A DNA stretch of 64,000 nucleotides from Bartonella krasnovii (lineage in GTDB: Bacteria; Pseudomonadota; Alphaproteobacteria; Rhizobiales; Rhizobiaceae). The stretch spans positions 1,905,001-1,969,000 of the forward strand of contig NZ_CP031844.2 of the NCBI RefSeq assembly GCF_003606345.3, read 5' to 3'. The notes beneath the pieces were generated by a model. The model saw nothing but the letters and a program-made list of their open reading frames with translations. It was not told the DNA's origin and did no database searches. Positions within the stretch are counted from its first letter, which is position 1; the number at the start of each line of letters is the position of its first letter. The position numbers were made by a program, and so were the translations under genes. This document shows, piece by piece, positions 2,124 to 19,655 of the stretch.

Positions 2124-3085
2124 CTAAAGATCCTTACTCAAAACTACAAGTTCATTTGACTTTTTACTGTTTCCCATACCGTAAGTCCATTCAGGATTAA
2201 GTATTTTATGTTCTTTATAAAGTTCTCTAACTTCCACACAATCATTATAAGATAAAACCCGACTTTAACGTTTTCTTAAAAATTCAGCAAGAGCTTGATG
2301 ATCAAAAGAATGATGTTATCGCCTTTTTAACCGTAAAGTTTTTGATTAATAAGACATGGAGGATCACAATAAAGAAAATCATTAAAGTGTTTAGGAATAC
2401 TTTCTGTAAAATCTCTGTGTTCCACTGTAAAATTTTCAATCTTAAAATCTTTAAGCCGTTCAATAGAACGATAATTGAAGCGAGGATATCCTAAAGACAT
2501 ACCGCCAGAAAGTGTTGTTCCAGAAAAAGAAGAACGATTAAGAGCAAAAAACGGCAGCAATCTCTAATTGATTTTTAATACTTCCAAAAGTTTTTTGGAG
2601 ATTATAAAAGATTACAGGGGCCATATCTTCATATTCTCTCACTTTCTCTGCAAGAGCTGAAGCATCTTTCAAAAGCATCTGCCAAAAAATAACAAGCGGC
2701 TTAAAAGCATCATAAGCATAAACCTTTGTTCCTATTTTTGCTAAGGTTAATTCAATTGAACCGCCTTCCTTAGCTAGCCCCCTTTAAGTAAGATAATAAG
2801 GCCACCTGCTATACTGTTCTGATTGGGGGTGAGCTCAGCTTTATAATAAACATCAAGCTGAAATACCTATAATTCTTTCTCATCAACGATATTTAAGAAA
2901 TCCAAATCTGGAATTTTTGAAGGAAATTTCAAACGCTGTTTTATTCCAAACAAATTATTCTTATCTATCCTATCAATAAAATAATTTCACTGCTCAAAAT
3001 TAATACTTACATTGAAATCAATAATTTCACCTATTCCTATCGTTTTAATAGATTTTATTAATCCAGAATTAATAATTTTAGCCAT
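2124..3085 (-). pseudogene. D12-class N6-adenine DNA methyltransferase relic
   Basis: From about 2780 downwards three reading frames together spell a D12 (Dam-like) adenine methyltransferase: GGSIELTLAKIGTKVYAYDAF (SAM-binding motif I region), FALNRSSFSGTTLSGG, then FLYCDPPC, where DPPC stands in the place of the catalytic DPPY, and a C-terminal HQALAEFLRKR / LSYNDC / WTYGMGNSKKSNE. Stops and frame changes interrupt it near 2775, 2540, 2327 and 2255. The upstream part from an ATG at 3085 (with an in-frame TGA at about 2987 and a TAG at about 2864) is less recognisable and could belong to another gene. Together with the endonuclease relic downstream it forms a dead type II restriction-modification system. 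Confidence 0.75.
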
Positions 3086-3368
3086 TTCAACTTTTTAAAA
3101 AAATCTTCCAACCCAAAGAAATAGCTTAAAGAATTTGAAAAGTGTTTACTTTTATTTATTGATCTTTCATTTACAGATTTTATAAAATCGTCCGGCATTT
3201 CTCCGTGACTAGGTGAGAATGGCAACTCCATAGCAAAGAGCGAAATAACTTTATCCCGACCAGTAAATAAAATATCAGTGCTGTTTTTTTAACTAACACA
3301 CCAGAAGAACTATGAAAAGAATCTGATAGTTTATATTTATTGGTGTAAACTCTGATGCGTATATCCAT
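3058..3368 (-). pseudogene. unrecognised small protein, frameshifted at an A7 tract
   Basis: An ATG at 3368 opens a frame that runs to a seven-A tract (T3284-T3290 on the plus strand). Adding one A would join it to a second open frame reading DILFTGRDKVISLFAMEL, PSHGEMPDDFIK and SLSYFFGLEDFF, ending at 3058. The restored product would be about 103 residues. The start lies 3 bases after the presumed end of the second radical SAM gene, and the end overlaps the next start (3085), which is operon-like spacing. I do not recognise the family. It may be a third component of the radical SAM cluster. Confidence 0.45.
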
Positions 3369-3371
3369 ATT

Positions 3372-3947
3372 TTATCTCACAGCCAGAAAAAATCCCGTAC
3401 CATATTTAACTGAAATGTATTCTCGTATTTTTTTTATTTTCAAAATTAACTAAAATGAACTCGGGAGGTGCGATACATATTAGAGCTAACACTTCTGCCA
3501 AATCGAATCTCTCCGATAAAGTAATCGTCACACTATATAGTACGCTATCTTTTTTCATACATTCTATGTTACGCACCCACTTTTGTTTATATTTTTTACT
3601 GTCTAGATTTCTTATCTCTGAAATAACATCTGTGCCTATTTGTATCCCTAAAAAGAACGGATTACTCTTTAATAGCTTAAAATATGGTTGAATATAGATG
3701 TGCCCCCCCTGTTGCAACCCGAAAATATTTTTTAAAAATGAGACACATACAAGTATATTTATGAAGTAAACCATAATCGAGCTCAAAAGGCTCTCCACCA
3801 GAAAGAATAATAAAATCAGATTTTATGTCATTTATTGTATATAAAGATTCAGGCAAGGCGTCATTTCTCACCATATTCCATCGAATACAGACAATGATTG
3901 CAGCCCGCACTGCAATTTTCATTACAAATTACAATATTATCGCTCAT
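3372..3947 (-). pseudogene. short radical SAM protein, broken at homopolymers
   Basis: From ATG 3947 the first residues contain C12-SAG-C16-NH-C19, the CxxxCxxC [4Fe-4S] cluster motif of radical SAM enzymes, followed in another frame by ILSGGEPFE (the GGE motif that contacts SAM). Three one-base corrections would give a single protein of about 190 residues: one A fewer near 3875, one G fewer in the G7 run at 3703-3709, and one A fewer in the A8 run at about 3428-3435. It would end KYGTGFFLAVR at 3372. No C-terminal auxiliary cluster is visible, so this is a minimal-size enzyme. Its ATG overlaps the stop of the MFS-kinase gene (ATGAGCGATAA), indicating translational coupling. The substrate is unknown. 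Confidence 0.72.
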
Positions 3948-5721
3948 GAAATTTCCTATTCAAGTTCATATAATCCAATACTAATTGTTTCATGAAAATA
4001 TTTTGGTATGGAGAAAGATCAGAAATTTTTTTAGCCACAAACGCTTTTATCATTGGTAAAGCTTCATCCTTTGATATAGACAGCAAATGAGAAATATAGT
4101 CTATCCGTTCTTCTAAATTGAGAGATAACCTTGGACTGGTGAAAAATGTTAAGATATCCAATTCCGGACTGGCTTCTTGACATAAATCCCAATCCACTAC
4201 CATAAAAGAACCATCAGGAGTAACAATGATATTATCAGGATGTAAATCTCCATGTGATAAAGTTATATTCCTGCTTAATCGATCTTGAAAGATCTTATTG
4301 ATTTGATCAATAATCGCCTTTTGATGTAGCAAATCCATTCGGCTCAATACAGTACCCCGGATAAACTCCCATTCGACGACTTCATCGCAAAGTGTTATCA
4401 AATTTGGTGCAGGATAGAGACTTTGTCGAAAAGAGCCATCCTTGATGTTTTCATTAATGCACGATGCTGCCGGATAAATTTGCCCATAGCAAAACTCTTG
4501 ATGCTTGCGTTTCAAGAAATGTTGTTTTGACGATTGTGCATTTTCAGGCTGTAACCAAATGATTTCTTGTTTTCTGACAAAAATAATTAAAGCAGACACC
4601 CCAAAAATCACAGCCATAATCACTGCCAACCACAAATTAGCTTGCCAGAATGTTGAAAAAACATGACCGTATAAAAAACTGAATGCAAAGGATACAACAG
4701 CTGTAATAATGGCTGTAAATGATAAAACAGTCGCGATAGCTTTGGGATCAATCAGTGAATTTATAAGAAGAGACGACAGATAAGATCGATAAGCAGATTT
4801 AAAAACACATAGCAGTAAAAATCCTAATATAAGAGCCGCAATGATTTGAAATGACATAAGAAAAAAAGCAATGGTTACCATACAACCAATCATTAAAACG
4901 GGGAAAATAGGATTTTGAAACTTTGAAAAATACTTCTGAAACAATATATTGGAACTTGCTGAAAAAAAATTCCCAATGATAAAAATAATCGAAACCAAAA
5001 TAGCAGGTTGAAATGGCAAAAAATCAGAAAATGCGATAGAAACAGTTCGATTATTAACCAAAATAGCAAAAGCTGAAACTGCACTTAAAAAAATAAGAGT
5101 GAAGCGATAAGGATTTCTGACTTCTTTACGGCTAGCGCACATAACTGTGAAAATACTCGGATGAGCCTTGATATGAAAACTATCTAATCCCTTCGTCAGT
5201 TTTGAAAACATAAAAATAGCAAAAATTAATGAAAGGACTTGAAAAATCACAGGCAATGCAGGATGCACATAATAAAGTATTCCCCCTAAAAAAATAAGTA
5301 CCGTTGTCACACTATAGGTAACAGCAGCCACTTCGGACTTAACAGAAAACAGTGTGCGATGCTTTGGTACTACAGAAAAGAGTAAACTATCTTCCGCACC
5401 TGAGAAACAAGCGGCTGCTAATGTAATACACAACAAATAAGTGGCGTAAGCAAAATATGCATAATTCATAAAAAGAGCTAAAAAACCGCAAAGAAAGAAA
5501 AACAGCCCAGTATAAATAACACGCTTACTTCCATAAACATCTGATAACAAACCCAAGGGGACTTCTAAGACCAAAGGAAGCAATAAAAAATAACTACCGA
5601 TTAAAACAATATCCGCTTGCGAGAGATGCAATTTTTCCGACAAAAAAAGTGGTAAAACAGCAACCACTAGAGCAGTAGACTTGCTAACACTATAAATCTT
5701 AAATTGCTTAACCTTATCCAC
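3937..5721 (-). CDS. MFS transporter fused to an APH-like kinase domain
   Basis: About 594 residues. Residues 1-390 are a polytopic membrane protein with a major facilitator layout (GLLSDVYGSKRV matches the loop 2-3 motif G-x3-D-x2-G-x-[RK]). A short linker leads to a C-terminal aminoglycoside/choline phosphotransferase-like domain with HGDLHPDN (Brenner motif, about residues 490-497) and VVDWD (metal-binding Asp, about 510). The GTG at 5721 has GGAAGG six bases upstream and overlaps the stop of the upstream radical SAM gene; a GTG five codons earlier is possible. It is intact while the genes on both sides are broken. It likely moves a small substrate and phosphorylates it, or is regulated by the kinase; both are inference. 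Confidence 0.85.
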   Translation of the reverse strand: MDKVKQFKIYSVSKSTALVVAVLPLFLSEKLHLSQADIVLIGSYFLLLPLVLEVPLGLLSDVYGSKRVIYTGLFFFLCGFLALFMNYAYFAYATYLLCITLAAACFSGAEDSLLFSVVPKHRTLFSVKSEVAAVTYSVTTVLIFLGGILYYVHPALPVIFQVLSLIFAIFMFSKLTKGLDSFHIKAHPSIFTVMCASRKEVRNPYRFTLIFLSAVSAFAILVNNRTVSIAFSDFLPFQPAILVSIIFIIGNFFSASSNILFQKYFSKFQNPIFPVLMIGCMVTIAFFLMSFQIIAALILGFLLLCVFKSAYRSYLSSLLINSLIDPKAIATVLSFTAIITAVVSFAFSFLYGHVFSTFWQANLWLAVIMAVIFGVSALIIFVRKQEIIWLQPENAQSSKQHFLKRKHQEFCYGQIYPAASCINENIKDGSFRQSLYPAPNLITLCDEVVEWEFIRGTVLSRMDLLHQKAIIDQINKIFQDRLSRNITLSHGDLHPDNIIVTPDGSFMVVDWDLCQEASPELDILTFFTSPRLSLNLEERIDYISHLLSISKDEALPMIKAFVAKKISDLSPYQNIFMKQLVLDYMNLNRKFHER

Positions 5722-6246
5722 AAAATACCTTCCCACGACATCCGCTACATGCGCCAGATTCTTTCAAAGATTTTAAAACGCTTTGAGCAGACCAATCTAT
5801 TGCCTCATAATTTTGTAGATTCCTAAAAACTTCTGAATAAAAGCAATTTTTTAAATCTCCATTATAGTCCAATACCAAGGATGAAAATGGAAATAAACAC
5901 ATTAACGGCGACGAAACGTACGTAGAATTTTCGCCTAAGTAATAATTAATACAATTTACAAAATTTTGTGACGTCCATGAGATTTTTCTTTCTTGGAACT
6001 TTTTATCTATATAAATCTGGAGGGGGGATTTTTTTCTTGATAATTCATCTCTCAAATGAAAAAGTGAGGCGTTTGACGTAAGAGTTTTGTTTCTTAAAGC
6101 CTTAGATCTATCCTTTGTATTATTTTTTCTAGAAAAACTAAATGACGACGTATCGAGCGGGCTAAATCCGATATAATCAACATCTTTGCTTATACAAAAA
6201 TCGAATCTGACGCACTAATCAAGGCTTCCTTCTTTAAAAGACGCCA
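5714..6246 (-). pseudogene. radical SAM/SPASM protein, C-terminal remnant
   Basis: An ATG at 6246 is followed by a TAG at codon 11 and then an open frame to 5714. The sequence contains KDVDYIGFSPLD, then a SPASM-type C-terminus with Cys-rich auxiliary-cluster motifs: CLFPFSSLVLDYNGDLKNC and GACSGCRGKVFCG at the very end. The N-terminal CxxxCxxC half is absent. SPASM proteins usually modify peptides or maturate enzymes. The stop overlaps the start of the MFS-kinase gene by 8 bases, so the two were one transcription unit. Whether the missing N-terminus was deleted when the island joined the queuosine transporter gene cannot be seen. Confidence 0.75.
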
Positions 6247-6303
6247 TTATAGAATATAATGTACAATTGTCTTTCCCTTAGGAAAACAAGAGAACAAAAA
6301 TTA

Positions 6304-6987
6304 TCACTTGTTACAAGCAAAAGAGGAATCATCCTTTGCATGGCTTTGATAAAGAGGGAGTTTCACAATGTTAAGAATTGTTCCATAAGGAATCAACATC
6401 AACAGGCTCATAATAATTTTTACGGAGAAATCGCCAAAAGCAAGCGAAAGCCAAACGGGCATGCCTATCCCTCCCAGAACAGTGCTCTCTACCAGTGAAC
6501 TATCAGCATAGCCTGTCATCTTATCAAGAATGGCAAAAGAGCTCGAAAAAGCAAGAGCAAAAAACAACAATGTATCCAATGCCGAACCAACCAACGCCGC
6601 TGCTAAGGGTGCTTTCCACCATGTTTTCCGTCTCAAAGGCGTAAAAACAACGATATCAAGGAGTTGCCCAAATAAAAATGCTAAACTAGAAGCAAGTGCA
6701 AGCCGTGGTGTTGCCAATATCCAAGAAACAAAAACACCAGCAAAAAAACCAGCATAAACCACGCGCCGCGCAGCAGATGGACCATAAAAACGATTGGTCA
6801 AATCATTGATGAGAAAAGCAAATGGATAGGTAAAAGCCCCATAAGTCAAAAGCTCATTTAAATCAAACCAATAGACGGGATATTGAACCAAAATATTAGA
6901 AGCAGTGACCGCAAGGCACATTGCTAAAATAGAGAAAACAACATATCTTCTCTTTTGCTGTTCTAATAAAAGACCGCTTGAAAACAT
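6304..6987 (-). CDS. yhhQ: queuosine precursor transporter (YhhQ/QPTR family)
   Basis: A 227-residue, strongly hydrophobic protein with about six membrane segments and the family signature LTYGAFTYPFAFLINDLTNR near residues 45-65. The family imports preQ0/preQ1 for tRNA queuosine, which suits an organism that salvages rather than makes the base. I chose ATG 6987, with AGG 8-9 bases upstream, over a TTG nine codons earlier. I looked at the leader for a preQ1 riboswitch and saw none. It is the first clearly core gene after the accessory island and lies on the same strand as the island genes. Confidence 0.88.
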   Translation of the reverse strand: MFSSGLLLEQQKRRYVVFSILAMCLAVTASNILVQYPVYWFDLNELLTYGAFTYPFAFLINDLTNRFYGPSAARRVVYAGFFAGVFVSWILATPRLALASSLAFLFGQLLDIVVFTPLRRKTWWKAPLAAALVGSALDTLLFFALAFSSSFAILDKMTGYADSSLVESTVLGGIGMPVWLSLAFGDFSVKIIMSLLMLIPYGTILNIVKLPLYQSHAKDDSSFACNK

Positions 6988-7118
6988 TTTTTTTAACCTG
7001 GGGTATGGAACCAATAAAATAATAGAGCGATCAGAGAGAGAAAAGCCTCAAAAGCAAACTTCTAGAACAAAGATCGGTGATTAAAATGTCAATCCGCTAA
7101 AGATAATGATACGAACAA

Positions 7119-12468: not shown

Positions 12469-14202
12469 TCAAACGGCTTTACGGATAAAACGCCAGCGAA
12501 CCTTTTCCTGAAATGCAGGGCGAAAATATAAAACGATCTGCTGTGTCCGTTGTGGACCTGCTAATTCCGCAAAATCAACCGAATCTTCAAGACAAATATC
12601 CACATCAGGCGAAATAAAATACCATACTTGCTCGCCCCTCACGTGCCCATTCTTTACCGCTAAACACACACGTTCACCATCGTAGTTAACATCAACTTGT
12701 GGATGAAGATGAAACCGAACAGCAACATGATCTTGTTCACTTTGCGCTCTTTTATGTCTCTTTCCCTCTTTATTGGGCATAAAAAAACGATCAAAGCCTT
12801 CGATCATATCTCCATTTGTCGCCAAAATAAGACCACGCTCATGAATAAGATTAAAGGGGCGCACATAACCATTATGGCTCGCAATAAAACCTGTTTTTTC
12901 TGAATCCTCTATACGGTGCACTTTAACTTCCCTGGGACCCTCAAACAAAAGAGAGGCGCCATTTTTCTTTTTTTTGTAAAAAACGCCCACCGAACAATCA
13001 TTAAGCGTCGCTGTTGAATGAGCTGCGGTAACACGCCCTAAATGTCGATAGTCTTCCCGTCCATTAGGGTTAACACCAGTATTGATAATAAAACGGTGTC
13101 CTTGTGAAGACATTTCAAAAGATAAACATCCTGAACAAGCCTGTTGCGCTACAAAGCGTGGTGGAAATTTCCCCGTATCGGCAATAATTGTTGTTTGATT
13201 GGCTTTTAAACGCTGAAACCCTGAATAACGCGCATAACTAAAAGGATGACCTCCTGTTTCATCAAGCTCCAAAAGTGTCGATAACCGTTCCGACACAAGG
13301 GGACCAACCCCATTAAAATGCGCCAATGTTTGATCCTCATGGATAAAGAATCGCAAAGCTGGTAACATACGCTCAACAGAATCAATCAAAATACGGGGTG
13401 CCGTTTCATTGCTTCGCATAAAAAAGTAACGTAAAGATAATAAATCTGATAATAAATTAAGCAAAATGATAGGGCTACGGGAAATATGCCCACCATCAAT
13501 CAAAATCTGAAGCGAAAGTTCTTCTATAAGCGTGTTTTGTACCTTTTTTTTCACGGTTGCAGAAATAGGTAAAGCAAGAGATGCGAATGTCAAAGCTATT
13601 GCTGCTTGTAACCGTTGATCATTGTGCTCCATACTGCAAATTATTACGCGCAAATAACGAAACTGCAAACCAAGCGCACGTAAAAAGTGTTTTTCAAACC
13701 GCTCGCTTGCCCCTTCTAACAACATTTTTGAGTGACAAATCCACGAGATCAAACGCCGCGCTACAACAGGACCACTCCAAGCAAGCCCTTTTACCTTTTT
13801 GCCAGCGTGGTTTAGCCAATCTTCTAAAAGAGAACGTGCATGCGCTGTAGCTAAATCACTTTCTGCTGCTTCCATATGGCGCAACCAATGAAAATCGTGC
13901 AGAGCCGCCTCCCATTCCAACGTTGGCGAAACCAATGAAAAGGGTGAAACAGCACCAGAATGAACAGTATGACCCGCAAAAGCAAAACGACCGTGATAAA
14001 ATTCATGCGCCATCACCGGATCAGCCACATGCAAATCAATGGGGTGGGCTAAAATTTTATGAGGACGAAACCCCGAAAACCGCCAACGAAACAATGGCCC
14101 AACCCATAAACGCCGCACAACATGCTGTAGCGTATCGATACAGGCCGCTATTTTTACCTGAGGAGCTTTTACCGCAACCGCCAAAATTCTATCTCCATCC
14201 AT
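12469..14202 (-). CDS. heparinase II/III family protein
   Basis: 577 residues. The N-terminal half is an all-helical toroid (DFHWLRHME, WLNHAGKKVKGLAW, ISWICHSKMLLEGAS) and the C-terminal half a beta-sandwich with VNPNGREDYRHLGRVTAAHSTATLNDCSVG, the conserved core around His/Tyr of the PF07940 family. In rhizobia this gene follows rsmB and precedes purH; here rsmB is directly upstream (46 bases) but purH faces it. The substrate in alphaproteobacteria is unproven; a polysaccharide lyase role at the envelope is the family guess. No signal peptide is obvious. Confidence 0.85.
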   Translation of the reverse strand: MDGDRILAVAVKAPQVKIAACIDTLQHVVRRLWVGPLFRWRFSGFRPHKILAHPIDLHVADPVMAHEFYHGRFAFAGHTVHSGAVSPFSLVSPTLEWEAALHDFHWLRHMEAAESDLATAHARSLLEDWLNHAGKKVKGLAWSGPVVARRLISWICHSKMLLEGASERFEKHFLRALGLQFRYLRVIICSMEHNDQRLQAAIALTFASLALPISATVKKKVQNTLIEELSLQILIDGGHISRSPIILLNLLSDLLSLRYFFMRSNETAPRILIDSVERMLPALRFFIHEDQTLAHFNGVGPLVSERLSTLLELDETGGHPFSYARYSGFQRLKANQTTIIADTGKFPPRFVAQQACSGCLSFEMSSQGHRFIINTGVNPNGREDYRHLGRVTAAHSTATLNDCSVGVFYKKKKNGASLLFEGPREVKVHRIEDSEKTGFIASHNGYVRPFNLIHERGLILATNGDMIEGFDRFFMPNKEGKRHKRAQSEQDHVAVRFHLHPQVDVNYDGERVCLAVKNGHVRGEQVWYFISPDVDICLEDSVDFAELAGPQRTQQIVLYFRPAFQEKVRWRFIRKAV

Positions 14203-14248
14203 GCTGAATCAAATACAATTTCGACCATTTTTGTAAATGAAGCGTTAA

Positions 14249-15616
14249 TTAAGCAATTTTTCGTAAGCGCGCAGCAAAAAAACCATCCATTCCTAAAAAT
14301 GCAGTTTTCTCAGCATCAAAATTTTTATAACAAAAATCCGCCGGCGTCGTGCGCAACATCCCCTCACTAAGCAAATGCGTGAGCTCTCCCATTTCTTCTG
14401 GATCAATAGGGTCTAAAACAATATCATTGCGTGTTGATAAAATTTTCTCAATAAGATCTTCACCTTCTTCTCGAGCCAATGAACAATTGGAAAAAACAAT
14501 CCGTCCCCCCTCCTTTACCAAGGCAATAGCGGCGATAAGCAAATCATATTGCAACGCCGCTAACTTGACCACATCATCCATCGATTTGGTCCATAAAATA
14601 TCTGGATGACGACGGATTGTTCCTGTAGAAGAACAAGGAGCATCAAGAAGAACCGAATCAAAAAGCTGTGTGGGATGAAAATTTCTCACATCCCCCTGCC
14701 AAATATGAACGGAAAAATTGAGCCGTTCCATATTTTCTTTTAAACGCTTGACGCGGTTAGCAGAAAGCTCAATGGCGGTCACCTCTGCCCCCTGCAAAGC
14801 CAATTGTGCTGTTTTCCCCCCAGGGCTCGCACAAAGGTCAGCAACATTTTTACCCCGAATCTCTCCGAGTAAACAAGCAGGCAACGCTGAGGCAAAGTCT
14901 TGAACCCACCACGCCCCCTCACGATAACCTGGTAAATCAGAAACAGAACACGCCAAACGATTCAATCGAACAGAACCATTGGGCAACACCACACCGCCAA
15001 GCTTCTCAGCCCATCCAACACAATCAGATTTTACTGTCAAATCAAGCGGAGGTTCCACACTTTGAATTTCTATAATTTGACGCGCCTTTTCTATTCCATA
15101 AGTTGATACTAAAAGCTCTCCAAACCACGCTGGAACACCTTCAACGGTAGGAGTTTGTGGGCGTAAAAGTACCGCCTCACGCGCAACATTGCGCAAAAGA
15201 GCATTTACCACCCCTGAAAAACGGCGCATACGAGGATCAAATTTTGCCACACGCACAGCTAAATCAATAGCCGCATGATCAGGAATATCAAGATAAAGAA
15301 TTTGCGCCACACTAATATGCAAAAGATGCTGAAGTGAAAGTGCTTGTGAGGGTAAAGAGCGCGCTAAAAAGCGTGAGAGAGCCGCCGCAATCGACCCTCG
15401 ATGACGCAATGACGTTGTCAAAATAGCCCGACACAATAAACGATCTCGTTGTGAAAGTTTTAAATATTGTGGGTGTCCGTGTTCATTATCCGTCAAACCA
15501 GAAAGAGGCGTATTCTTATCAACGACCGCCCCTAAAAGACGTACACACACCTGTCGAACAGCCAATCCTGGAACATCTTTTTCAGACACATGCCCCACCT
15601 TTTTGTGTTTCAACAT
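14249..15616 (-). CDS. rsmB: 16S rRNA m5C967 methyltransferase RsmB
   Basis: 455 residues. The N-terminal NusB-like RNA-binding domain (about 20-150) is followed by a SAM-dependent RNA m5C methyltransferase: WWVQDFASALPA, DLCASPGGKTAQLA (motif I), LLDAPCSSTGTIRRHPD (motif IV with the release Cys in PCSSTG) and VFSNCSLAREEGE (motif VI, where the usual catalytic TCS is NCS). The Cys is kept in both motifs. Same strand as the heparinase-like gene downstream. Confidence 0.94.
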   Translation of the reverse strand: MLKHKKVGHVSEKDVPGLAVRQVCVRLLGAVVDKNTPLSGLTDNEHGHPQYLKLSQRDRLLCRAILTTSLRHRGSIAAALSRFLARSLPSQALSLQHLLHISVAQILYLDIPDHAAIDLAVRVAKFDPRMRRFSGVVNALLRNVAREAVLLRPQTPTVEGVPAWFGELLVSTYGIEKARQIIEIQSVEPPLDLTVKSDCVGWAEKLGGVVLPNGSVRLNRLACSVSDLPGYREGAWWVQDFASALPACLLGEIRGKNVADLCASPGGKTAQLALQGAEVTAIELSANRVKRLKENMERLNFSVHIWQGDVRNFHPTQLFDSVLLDAPCSSTGTIRRHPDILWTKSMDDVVKLAALQYDLLIAAIALVKEGGRIVFSNCSLAREEGEDLIEKILSTRNDIVLDPIDPEEMGELTHLLSEGMLRTTPADFCYKNFDAEKTAFLGMDGFFAARLRKIA

Positions 15617-15673
15617 AACACCTTTATATCACTGCTTCCTCAAAAGATCCGTCTAAAAATCTCCTCAAAAACT

Positions 15674-16720
15674 CTATGAACGAGAACTTTTTGAATTTTC
15701 ATAACGAAGCCAAGAAGGACGTTTTGTAACCCGCTGAAAAGTGCTATCTTCTTTCTTACCTGATGCATGAGCCTGACCACTGCGAAAATCTTCATAATTC
15801 ATCCGGTTGCTTTTTTCACTTATAGCATCTTCTTTATTCCATACGCCACTTTCAGCAAGAGCCCCTTTCATCTCTTCTGCTTGCCTATAAAGAGCAGCAA
15901 TACGATTTGCCGTTGCAGGATGTGTTGAAAAAAGACTATCCGCTCCCTTACCGCTCAAAGGATTGATAATAAATAGATGCGCGGTTGCTGGATTATGCTC
16001 TGCTTCTTCATTGTAAACCCCATGCCCCCCATCAGCAATTTTACGCAATGCCGAAGCCAACCATAAAGGATTACCACATATTTCAGCTCCCCTACGATCC
16101 GCAGCATATTCACGCGTACGGCTAATAGCCATTTGTACGAGCATTGCAGCAAAAGGTGCTATGATGAGTGCAATCAATCCTCCAATTGCCCCAACACCAT
16201 GAGAATCTTCCGAAGAGCTACGCTGTCCTCCCATAAAGAAAGCAAAATTACCAAGCATTGAAATTGCCCCAGCAATCGTTGCTGTTAGAGTCATGGTTAA
16301 GGTATCACGATGCTCAATATGTGCAAGCTCATGCGCCATAACGCCAGCAACTTCTTCTGCACTTAACCGCTCTAACAAACCGCGGCTCGCAGCCACAGCG
16401 GCATTTTGAGGATTACGTCCTGTTGCAAAAGCATTCGGCTGCGCGCTATCTAGCACATACACCTTTGGTTGAGGAAGAGAAGCCTTTTTAGCTAAATCGC
16501 TTACGATTTTATAATAAACGGGTGCAGAATGCTGATCAACCTCACGCGCCCCGTACATACGCAAAACGATTTTATCTGAATTCCAATAAGAAAAAAAGTT
16601 TAAACCACTCGCCATTAAAAGAGCAATGATCATGCCACTGCCCCCTCCAACAAGATAACCAACCCCCATAAAGAGAGCTGTTAAAAAAGCCAAAAGCATG
16701 GCTGTACGCATTATGTTCAT
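15674..16720 (-). CDS. htpX: M48 zinc protease HtpX
   Basis: 348 residues. Two N-terminal membrane segments are followed by the M48 core: [11 protein letters not shown], the zinc motif HELAH (in [13 protein letters not shown]) and the downstream Glu ligand in [14 protein letters not shown], with two further membrane segments between. HtpX removes misfolded membrane proteins under stress. The C-terminal 40 residues are polar and extended as in rhizobial homologues. A second ATG three codons in is an alternative start. Divergent from the SDH assembly factor gene. Confidence 0.96.
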
Positions 16721-16803
16721 TACTCAAAAAACTCCATGATAAAAGTCTACCAATACTATATGATGGTGTTTTCTTTCTGCTTCTTCAATGGAATAGGTGT
16801 AAA

Positions 16804-17019
16804 ATGAATAAAAAAGATGAAAAAACAAGCCCAAAAAATTCAACTGCCGTTCAACAGCAATCTCTTCCTTCCGCAGCGCAACGCGCCCTTAAAGAAGCTG
16901 AAGAAAGACGAAAAGACGAAGCAAAAAAAGAACAACCGTTGGAAAACGGTGGACGCGGCGGCAAAGATCCTTCACGCTATGGAGACTGGGAAATTAAAGG
17001 CCGCGCCATCGACTTTTAA
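16804..17019 (+). CDS. DUF1674 / succinate dehydrogenase assembly factor 4-like
   Basis: 71 residues, charged and Lys/Glu-rich, ending GRGGKDPSRYGDWEIKGRAIDF, the invariant C-terminus of the DUF1674/SDHAF4 family. The eukaryotic member binds flavinylated SDHA and shields it during complex II assembly; the bacterial role is inferred from this. An overlapping frame of the same length 13 bases later is a shadow. It converges with rpsP across a hairpin terminator. Confidence 0.9.
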   Translation: MNKKDEKTSPKNSTAVQQQSLPSAAQRALKEAEERRKDEAKKEQPLENGGRGGKDPSRYGDWEIKGRAIDF

Positions 17020-19464: not shown

Positions 19465-19509
19465 TATTTACCTCATCGTTGCCTAACAAAGTTGCCTAAC
19501 AAACAAACC

Positions 19510-19655
19510 AAAAGAGCATCCGAGAACGCATCGCGCCGTCGAATGCTGACCTCTGAGATCTATTCATACCCTTAAACTGGGGTCTCAGTCGGTGGCTCCA
19601 AGTTAATTTTGTCACTGAAAGCTTGCTCCTTCAAACAATAAAACCCCAGCTTTGT
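19510..19655 (-). ncRNA. candidate structured leader or small RNA upstream of ffh
   Basis: On the minus strand, CTGGGGT (19643-19649 region) pairs with ACCCCAG (19576-19582 region). Between them lie further pairable blocks (TTCAGTG / CACCGACTGAG). Downstream GCATTCGA pairs with TCGGATGC in an 8-bp stem followed by a T-rich run. The segment CTGAGA can also pair with TCTCAG nearer ffh, giving two alternative folds. A TTGACA lies at 19653-19658, just upstream. I cannot assign a family; 4.5S RNA was considered and its tetraloop region is not present. Confidence 0.35.

Follow-up and report, generated by a model that had tools for sequence, protein, structure and literature searches.

A Bartonella genome (Bartonella krasnovii, labelled G000 in our comparisons) was examined over a 64,000-nucleotide stretch, the window, whose coordinates are used throughout. 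On its minus strand the window holds what appears to be the relic of a mobile operon of the kind that makes ribosomally synthesized and post-translationally modified peptides (RiPPs), and a transporter-kinase encoded there would have exported and disarmed the product and would since have been kept as an orphan immunity protein. To this reading we assign a probability of roughly 55%. In order along that strand lie the remnant of a radical SAM gene (A), a gene for an MFS transporter fused to a phosphotransferase (B), the remnant of a short radical SAM gene (C), pieces of an enolase-superfamily-like gene (D) and a strip from behind D, and of genes A to D only B is still open:

5714..6250, minus strand: remnant of gene A, the last 179 codons of the gene for a 412-aa radical SAM protein with a SPASM-like tail (tblastn with the intact protein of genome G013)
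3937..5736, minus strand: gene B, intact, a 599-aa MFS transporter fused to an APH-type phosphotransferase (Pfam, AlphaFold2)
3340..3947, minus strand: remnant of gene C, a short radical SAM gene, frameshifted, whose intact form has 204 aa (tblastn)
2879..3368, minus strand: remnant of gene D, fragments of a 330-aa enolase-superfamily-like gene, reaching to about residue 200 (tblastn)

A sequence-only reading of this DNA had named three minus-strand genes, a SPASM-type radical SAM remnant, an intact MFS-phosphotransferase fusion and a short radical SAM gene (open reading frames (ORFs) at 5714-6055 and 3937-5736 and one starting at 3947), and these identifications stand. The set proved incomplete, as fragments of the fourth gene, D, lie beyond the range then considered (3372..6246), in tblastn pieces in three frames with 2 stops. 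The A remnant was found to extend to near 6250, so that it covers residues 234-412 of the 412 in the intact G013 protein, at 89% identity and with one stop, and C, rightly identified, is not intact: tblastn places its pieces in three frames from 3947 to 3340, with 4 frameshift indels relative to an intact copy. The gene overlaps of 8 and 11 bases that had been reported hold for a B start at GTG 5721 and a C start at ATG 3947, but with the alternative GTG at 5736 the A-B overlap becomes 23 bases.

The search of 71 Bartonella genomes (A at E 1e-15 or better, B at E 1e-20 or better, D at E 1e-3 or better) matched A in 16, B in the same 16 and D in 8. Two of the 16 carriers, G013 and G001, hold a short precursor ORF, A (412 aa), B, C and D (330 aa), all full length, and so both radical SAM genes, which the sequence-only reading had proposed to look for in intact form, exist as such. 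That reading had staked its operon on the genes being found together elsewhere; they are, within Bartonella in these two full-length operons and probably also outside it, as the frame-overlap analysis given below suggests. Its further suggestion, that the cluster made or modified a product handled by B, gains from the same gene order standing at full length beside a precursor-like ORF in two relatives, though the window's own copy has decayed and B alone looks functional in it. Over all 16 carriers, A is full length in three (G001, G013, G450), C in four (G001, G013, G027, G437), D in four (G001, G011, G013, G027) and the precursor ORF is present in seven (G001, G011, G013, G027, G035, G437, G450), while B is open in 15, the exception being G439. 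A frameshift early in A, at a homopolymer run, is common to three genomes (G011, G027, G437), and intact copies exist. Since several of the genomes are drafts (7% contamination is listed for G001), single frameshifts are possibly errors. Judged from its genes and their order, the layout is that of a cluster for a ribosomally made, modified peptide.

Part of that layout is the 29-codon ORF before A (MSYKKPQVIGTVNSATLTCYKPLVRDRKK), with a 12-bp GC-rich hairpin between the two. The statement of the sequence-only reading that there is no precursor peptide is true of the window, which lacks this whole stretch and more than half of A, but not of the genus, where such a conserved short peptide gene, also suggested as a target for searching, stands in 7 of the 16 loci. 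Five of the seven loci share one peptide sequence; the G437 copy departs from it by a single residue, and the G035 copy by a single residue and a Val codon at the start. The peptide contains no Glu and a single Cys, the residue that the Cys-to-alpha-carbon thioether of a sactipeptide would need. Upstream of the start, GAGGAGG is found in four of the six copies examined at the DNA level and one-base variants of it in the other two. The 29-aa ORF is a putative RiPP precursor beside its candidate maturase. The hairpin region has a folding energy of -25.5 kcal/mol (z -4.0) and is terminator-like on both strands, and it may be an attenuator that gives more precursor than enzyme; promoter-like sites before the precursor were not enriched (3 versus a shuffle mean of 2.8, both strands).

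The candidate maturase, A, belongs to a family of its own profile, which the window remnant matches at 9.6e-63, while against the SPASM-type model TIGR04085 the remnant scores 18.1 bits, under the 27-bit cut-off. The CxxxCxxC core and the C-terminal auxiliary-cluster cysteines are invariant in all 19 aligned family members; the Radical_SAM Pfam is likewise found in 19 of 19, the SPASM Pfam in 8 and weakly, and the PqqD Pfam in 12 (E up to 0.1, best 4.1e-10), the Bartonella protein itself having no PqqD match. Named homologues come from uncultured Roseibium, Vibrio, Nicoletella, Parachlamydia, Bacillus paramycoides, Ancillula and others. Among the 25 best of 57 NCBIfam matches, A was under the cut-off of every one (best 67.1 versus 380 bits). 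A viperin identity (pVip defence) was considered and rejected, NF038283 giving 47.7 bits against a cut-off of 180; the PADLOC pVip models, which show no cut-off, give A 57.9 and 55.6 bits, near the level of MoaA (60.9-61.9).

An intact C copy scores 25.6 bits (1.6e-5) against Radical_SAM, under the 29.5-bit cut-off, and in G450 (L062 10650-12359) C appears to have been cut by an insertion, since its first 50 codons continue in frame into a 569-aa ORF that is phage-like by eye. Intact D reaches 11.2 of the 29.4 bits required by the Pfam model MR_MLE_C and is nearest the dipeptide epimerase and muconate-lactonizing (MLE) subgroup by profile and by Foldseek rank. In an alignment with one sequence from outside Bartonella (P0012), residues K128/K130, D154, E180, D199 and K221 are invariant, and D thereby has the KxK pair, three acidic positions and distal Lys of the MLE subgroup of the enolase superfamily, in which we take the acidic positions to be metal ligands; D is probably a remote enolase-superfamily protein. 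Overlapping the D stop (L063 11964-12176) is a 70-aa ORF, present in six carrier genomes, in one of which (G001) it is split; it had no convincing family match (a phage holin model at E 0.076, 13.3 of 39.7 bits, and COX3 at E 0.2, both taken as chance); a suspicion by eye that it is a sugar-isomerase remnant could not be supported.

Both halves of B are recognizable by Pfam, with MFS_1 at 4.2e-14 and APH at 1.7e-7, each over the gathering score. Its AlphaFold2 model (pLDDT 88.3, pTM 0.84) has a well-predicted MFS domain, the N-terminal half taking the MFS fold, and a kinase-like domain with N-lobe-like strands. In eight aligned B sequences the kinase motifs HGDLHPDN (HGDxHxxN) and DWD (DxD) are invariant, as are the charged residues E58, E115, R230, K313 and R317 in predicted MFS helices. 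Copies 95-98% identical are found in B. grahamii, B. tribocorum, B. elizabethae, B. florencae, B. massiliensis, B. gabonensis and further Bartonella strains, and when 8000 candidates were scored, at least seven (P0001-P0007) of nine proteins at E 1e-3 or better were two-domain homologues, so that the fusion seems to form a small family of its own. A second, degenerate fragment akin to the MFS half lies near the main copy at G017 C2:318120-318374 (L027) and at L007 1941-2039.

The direction in which B would transport is less readily assigned. By sequence profile and by Foldseek E-value its MFS half is nearest NorA, an exporter, while by VIA Z it is nearest SLC19A3 and SLC19A1, the thiamine and folate carriers, and then LacY, and export and import are therefore both candidates. 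No kinase chain is among the 50 VIA matches listed for B, which are filled by the MFS half. Immunity is preferred because B is the only evident membrane protein of the operon and because the profile leans to exporters. The fused kinase and the SLC19-like fold weigh against this preference, and because of them some weight has to be given to uptake, in which B would be an importer with metabolic trapping: non-producing strains would scavenge a cofactor-like or nutrient-like product, and phosphorylation by the kinase would keep it inside. A kinase joined to a transporter would suit vectorial uptake, the invariant charged residues of the predicted helices suggest a polar substrate, and among several equally weak profile matches of the kinase half is one to thiamine kinase (20.3 of 299 bits); the keeping of B without the biosynthetic genes would also be in accord with an importer. 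However, uptake by B would leave the operon product with no other evident exporter, the sequence profile and Foldseek favour the NorA exporters, and no enzyme that uses such a compound was identified, none having been looked for. On balance we regard the importer as less likely than not, but as the main rival.

The preservation of B is apparent when disabling changes, i.e., frameshifts and stops relative to intact G013, are counted across the 14 other loci (G001 was left out, and missing stretches were not counted). Gene A has 20 such changes over 13,434 aligned bp, C has 18 over 5,760 bp, D has 8 over 4,369 bp and the precursor has 2 over 466 bp, and B has 2 over 24,656 bp, both of them in G439; A, C and D together thus have 46 in 23.6 kb versus 2 in 24.7 kb for B. 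Mean dN/dS of B was 0.26 over 15 alleles and 0.29 in the seven genomes whose A or precursor is grossly damaged. Retention of B while the other genes are lost is what would be expected of an immunity gene in strains living beside producers, or of a scavenger's uptake gene. It might instead be held that the whole locus is a neutral relic in which B has by chance not yet been hit, and the B alleles are indeed close (mean dS 0.047) and B is broken in G439. The disparity of 46 versus 2 over similar aligned lengths, though its events are not all independent by shared ancestry, and a dN/dS well below 1 make this very improbable.

Some of the losses are plainly shared. One common deletion, in G458, G462 and G019, runs from just before the precursor to inside A, and another, in G017 and G443, starts just inside the precursor, and both leave the upstream leader and B. 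Parsimony on the B tree requires only 2 to 4 changes in the state of A or the precursor, and since the decay events are, owing to common ancestry, not all independent, no p-value is attached to the retention of B. There are also signs of movement: the flanks fall into several groups, and the locus therefore lies at different places in different genomes, and G458 clusters with G011 on the B tree but has flanks that match G019 and G462, a conflict which indicates that loci or alleles have moved. In G013 the intact operon lies between two near-identical blocks of ORFs (L063 ~2500-6900 and 13000-16900), one of the ORFs integrase-like by eye, and a tRNA-Met gene stands by it at 17991-18067 of L063; these features may bear on how the operon moved. 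At the edges of the locus in the window are two further features:

2769..2900, minus strand: strip matching the region at and behind the 70-aa ORF that follows D in the intact operon (96% by blastn to positions 5043-5174 of the G013 operon)
6304..7014, minus strand: flanking gene of the Vut_1 family, outside the system (Pfam PF02592, 2e-24)

The strip is the leftover of a deletion, and the Vut_1 gene, at the upstream break, sits ~50 bases upstream of the A remnant; among the 16 carrier loci it adjoins the locus also in G455. Farther off, at window 19509-19560 on the minus strand, is a match to the Rfam ffh sRNA family (42 bits versus a gathering score of 35).

As the stop of A lies inside the start of B, their adjacency leaves a trace in the N-terminus of B, by which its age can be judged from proteins alone. 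The N-terminal codons of three diverged homologues, P0003, P0004 and P0005 (49, 46 and 41% identical to B), can encode the last eight codons of A (R-G-K/N-V/I/L-F-C-G/E-stop) in the overlapping frame, a pattern fitted by 1 of 50,156 control windows, with 6 fitting a six-codon pattern. In all three the fit extends to the cysteine before R, and in P0003 the first cysteine of the CxxC does not fit. P0002, P0006 and P0007 gave no long match (2 codons at most): in P0006 the fit is limited to the final two codons, at the protein start, and P0002 and P0007 have no N-terminal trace. This evidence, strong but indirect, argues that the A-B adjacency is probably old, and older than Bartonella.

The fusion, which the sequence-only reading had thought to trace through Bartonella and the Rhizobiales, is present in 16 of 71 genomes of the former, but a screen of 397 genomes from the order (thresholds E 1e-20 for B and 1e-30 for A) gave no family member besides G000, nor, G000 aside, was the A family found in 398 genomes of the phylum (1e-40) or 385 of the class (1e-30). 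Weak partial matches to B occur in five genomes outside the genus, the best at 5.8e-7. IMG/VR, plasmid and phage records had no member of the A or B family and only distant radical SAM matches, partial and at about 24-36%. Since the solved relatives of the B halves include NorA and a spectinomycin phosphotransferase, B might be a general detoxification or efflux protein that has nothing to do with the operon product and for that reason survives the operon's decay. Two-domain homologues are few, though (at least seven, among 8000 scored candidates), and the 72,556 plasmid and 50,697 phage records searched had none; three distant ones carry the A-overlap trace where a general pump would be expected to stand alone more often; we consider this explanation improbable.

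In the orphan-immunity reading, the PqqD-like N-terminus of A, recognized by its family, would bind the leader of the precursor, and the radical SAM/SPASM part would create a bond in, or rearrange, the core (...NSATLTCYKP...). The second radical SAM enzyme, C, and D, as an enolase-superfamily epimerase or cycloisomerase, would process the peptide further, and host peptidases would trim it. B would then export the product, its fused kinase phosphorylating, and so disarming, whatever re-enters, and non-producers would keep B as an orphan immunity protein that guards them from strains still able to produce it. A broader and more tentative proposal, which we think less likely than not, is that these genes represent an undescribed RiPP family, with two radical SAM enzymes and an enolase-superfamily epimerase or cycloisomerase, whose product is handled by a transporter-kinase kept for immunity or for uptake by non-producing Bartonella that share a host with producers. 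If true, RiPPs would gain an enolase-superfamily enzyme, a type not placed in RiPP pathways in those parts of the literature that were accessible, and there would be a natural one-chain transporter-kinase. The genus would also offer a natural experiment, in which the producing genes were lost in more than one way and one membrane protein was kept, pointing to the protein that meets the product, and the locus would hint that Bartonella strains compete or share by means of peptides.

The claim of the sequence-only reading that no described system has this set has held up, as no characterized pathway was matched by family, structure or literature comparison. No description of the gene set was found in the accessible literature on radical SAM RiPPs, enolase-superfamily epimerases, MFS-phosphotransferase fusions, orphan immunity and Bartonella, a body from which most subscription journals were outside scope, and the novelty of the precursor and A-B-C-D system is accordingly provisional. 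One source (PMC5808125) treats, in its available portions, L-Ala-D/L-Glu epimerases of the enolase superfamily and, separately from them, the machinery that acts on ribosomal peptides, radical SAM enzymes included.

Of known systems, the radical SAM/SPASM RiPP clusters (5v1q, which we take to be SuiB of the streptide type) are alike in having a short precursor-like ORF before a radical SAM protein with a Cys-rich C-terminus, and in the PqqD match of 12 of the 19 A-family members; the operon described here differs by its second, short radical SAM protein, its enolase-superfamily-like protein and its MFS-kinase. Biosynthesis of pyrroloquinoline quinone (PQQ; PqqA/PqqD/PqqE) is similar in the size of its precursor and in its PqqD-like and radical SAM/SPASM parts, which are here in one chain, and the KP...T.Y of the precursor presumably resembles PqqA, as judged by eye. 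In PqqA a Glu and a Tyr become cross-linked. Membership in the PQQ group was rejected, the precursor having no Glu and no match to any PqqA family; no pqqB/C-like gene was noticed by eye among the ORFs of the G013 locus, and we know of no counterpart of D or B in PQQ biosynthesis. Mycofactocin was considered as well and dropped, though no search was aimed at it. D resembles the dipeptide epimerases and muconate-lactonizing subgroup in its Lys pair and acidic positions, which come in the expected order, but is very remote in sequence and stands in an operon with radical SAM genes. The halves of B, which compare with NorA-type MFS exporters or SLC19 carriers and with APH-family kinases, each pass the Pfam cut-off of their superfamily, and B differs from all of these in having both parts fused in one chain.
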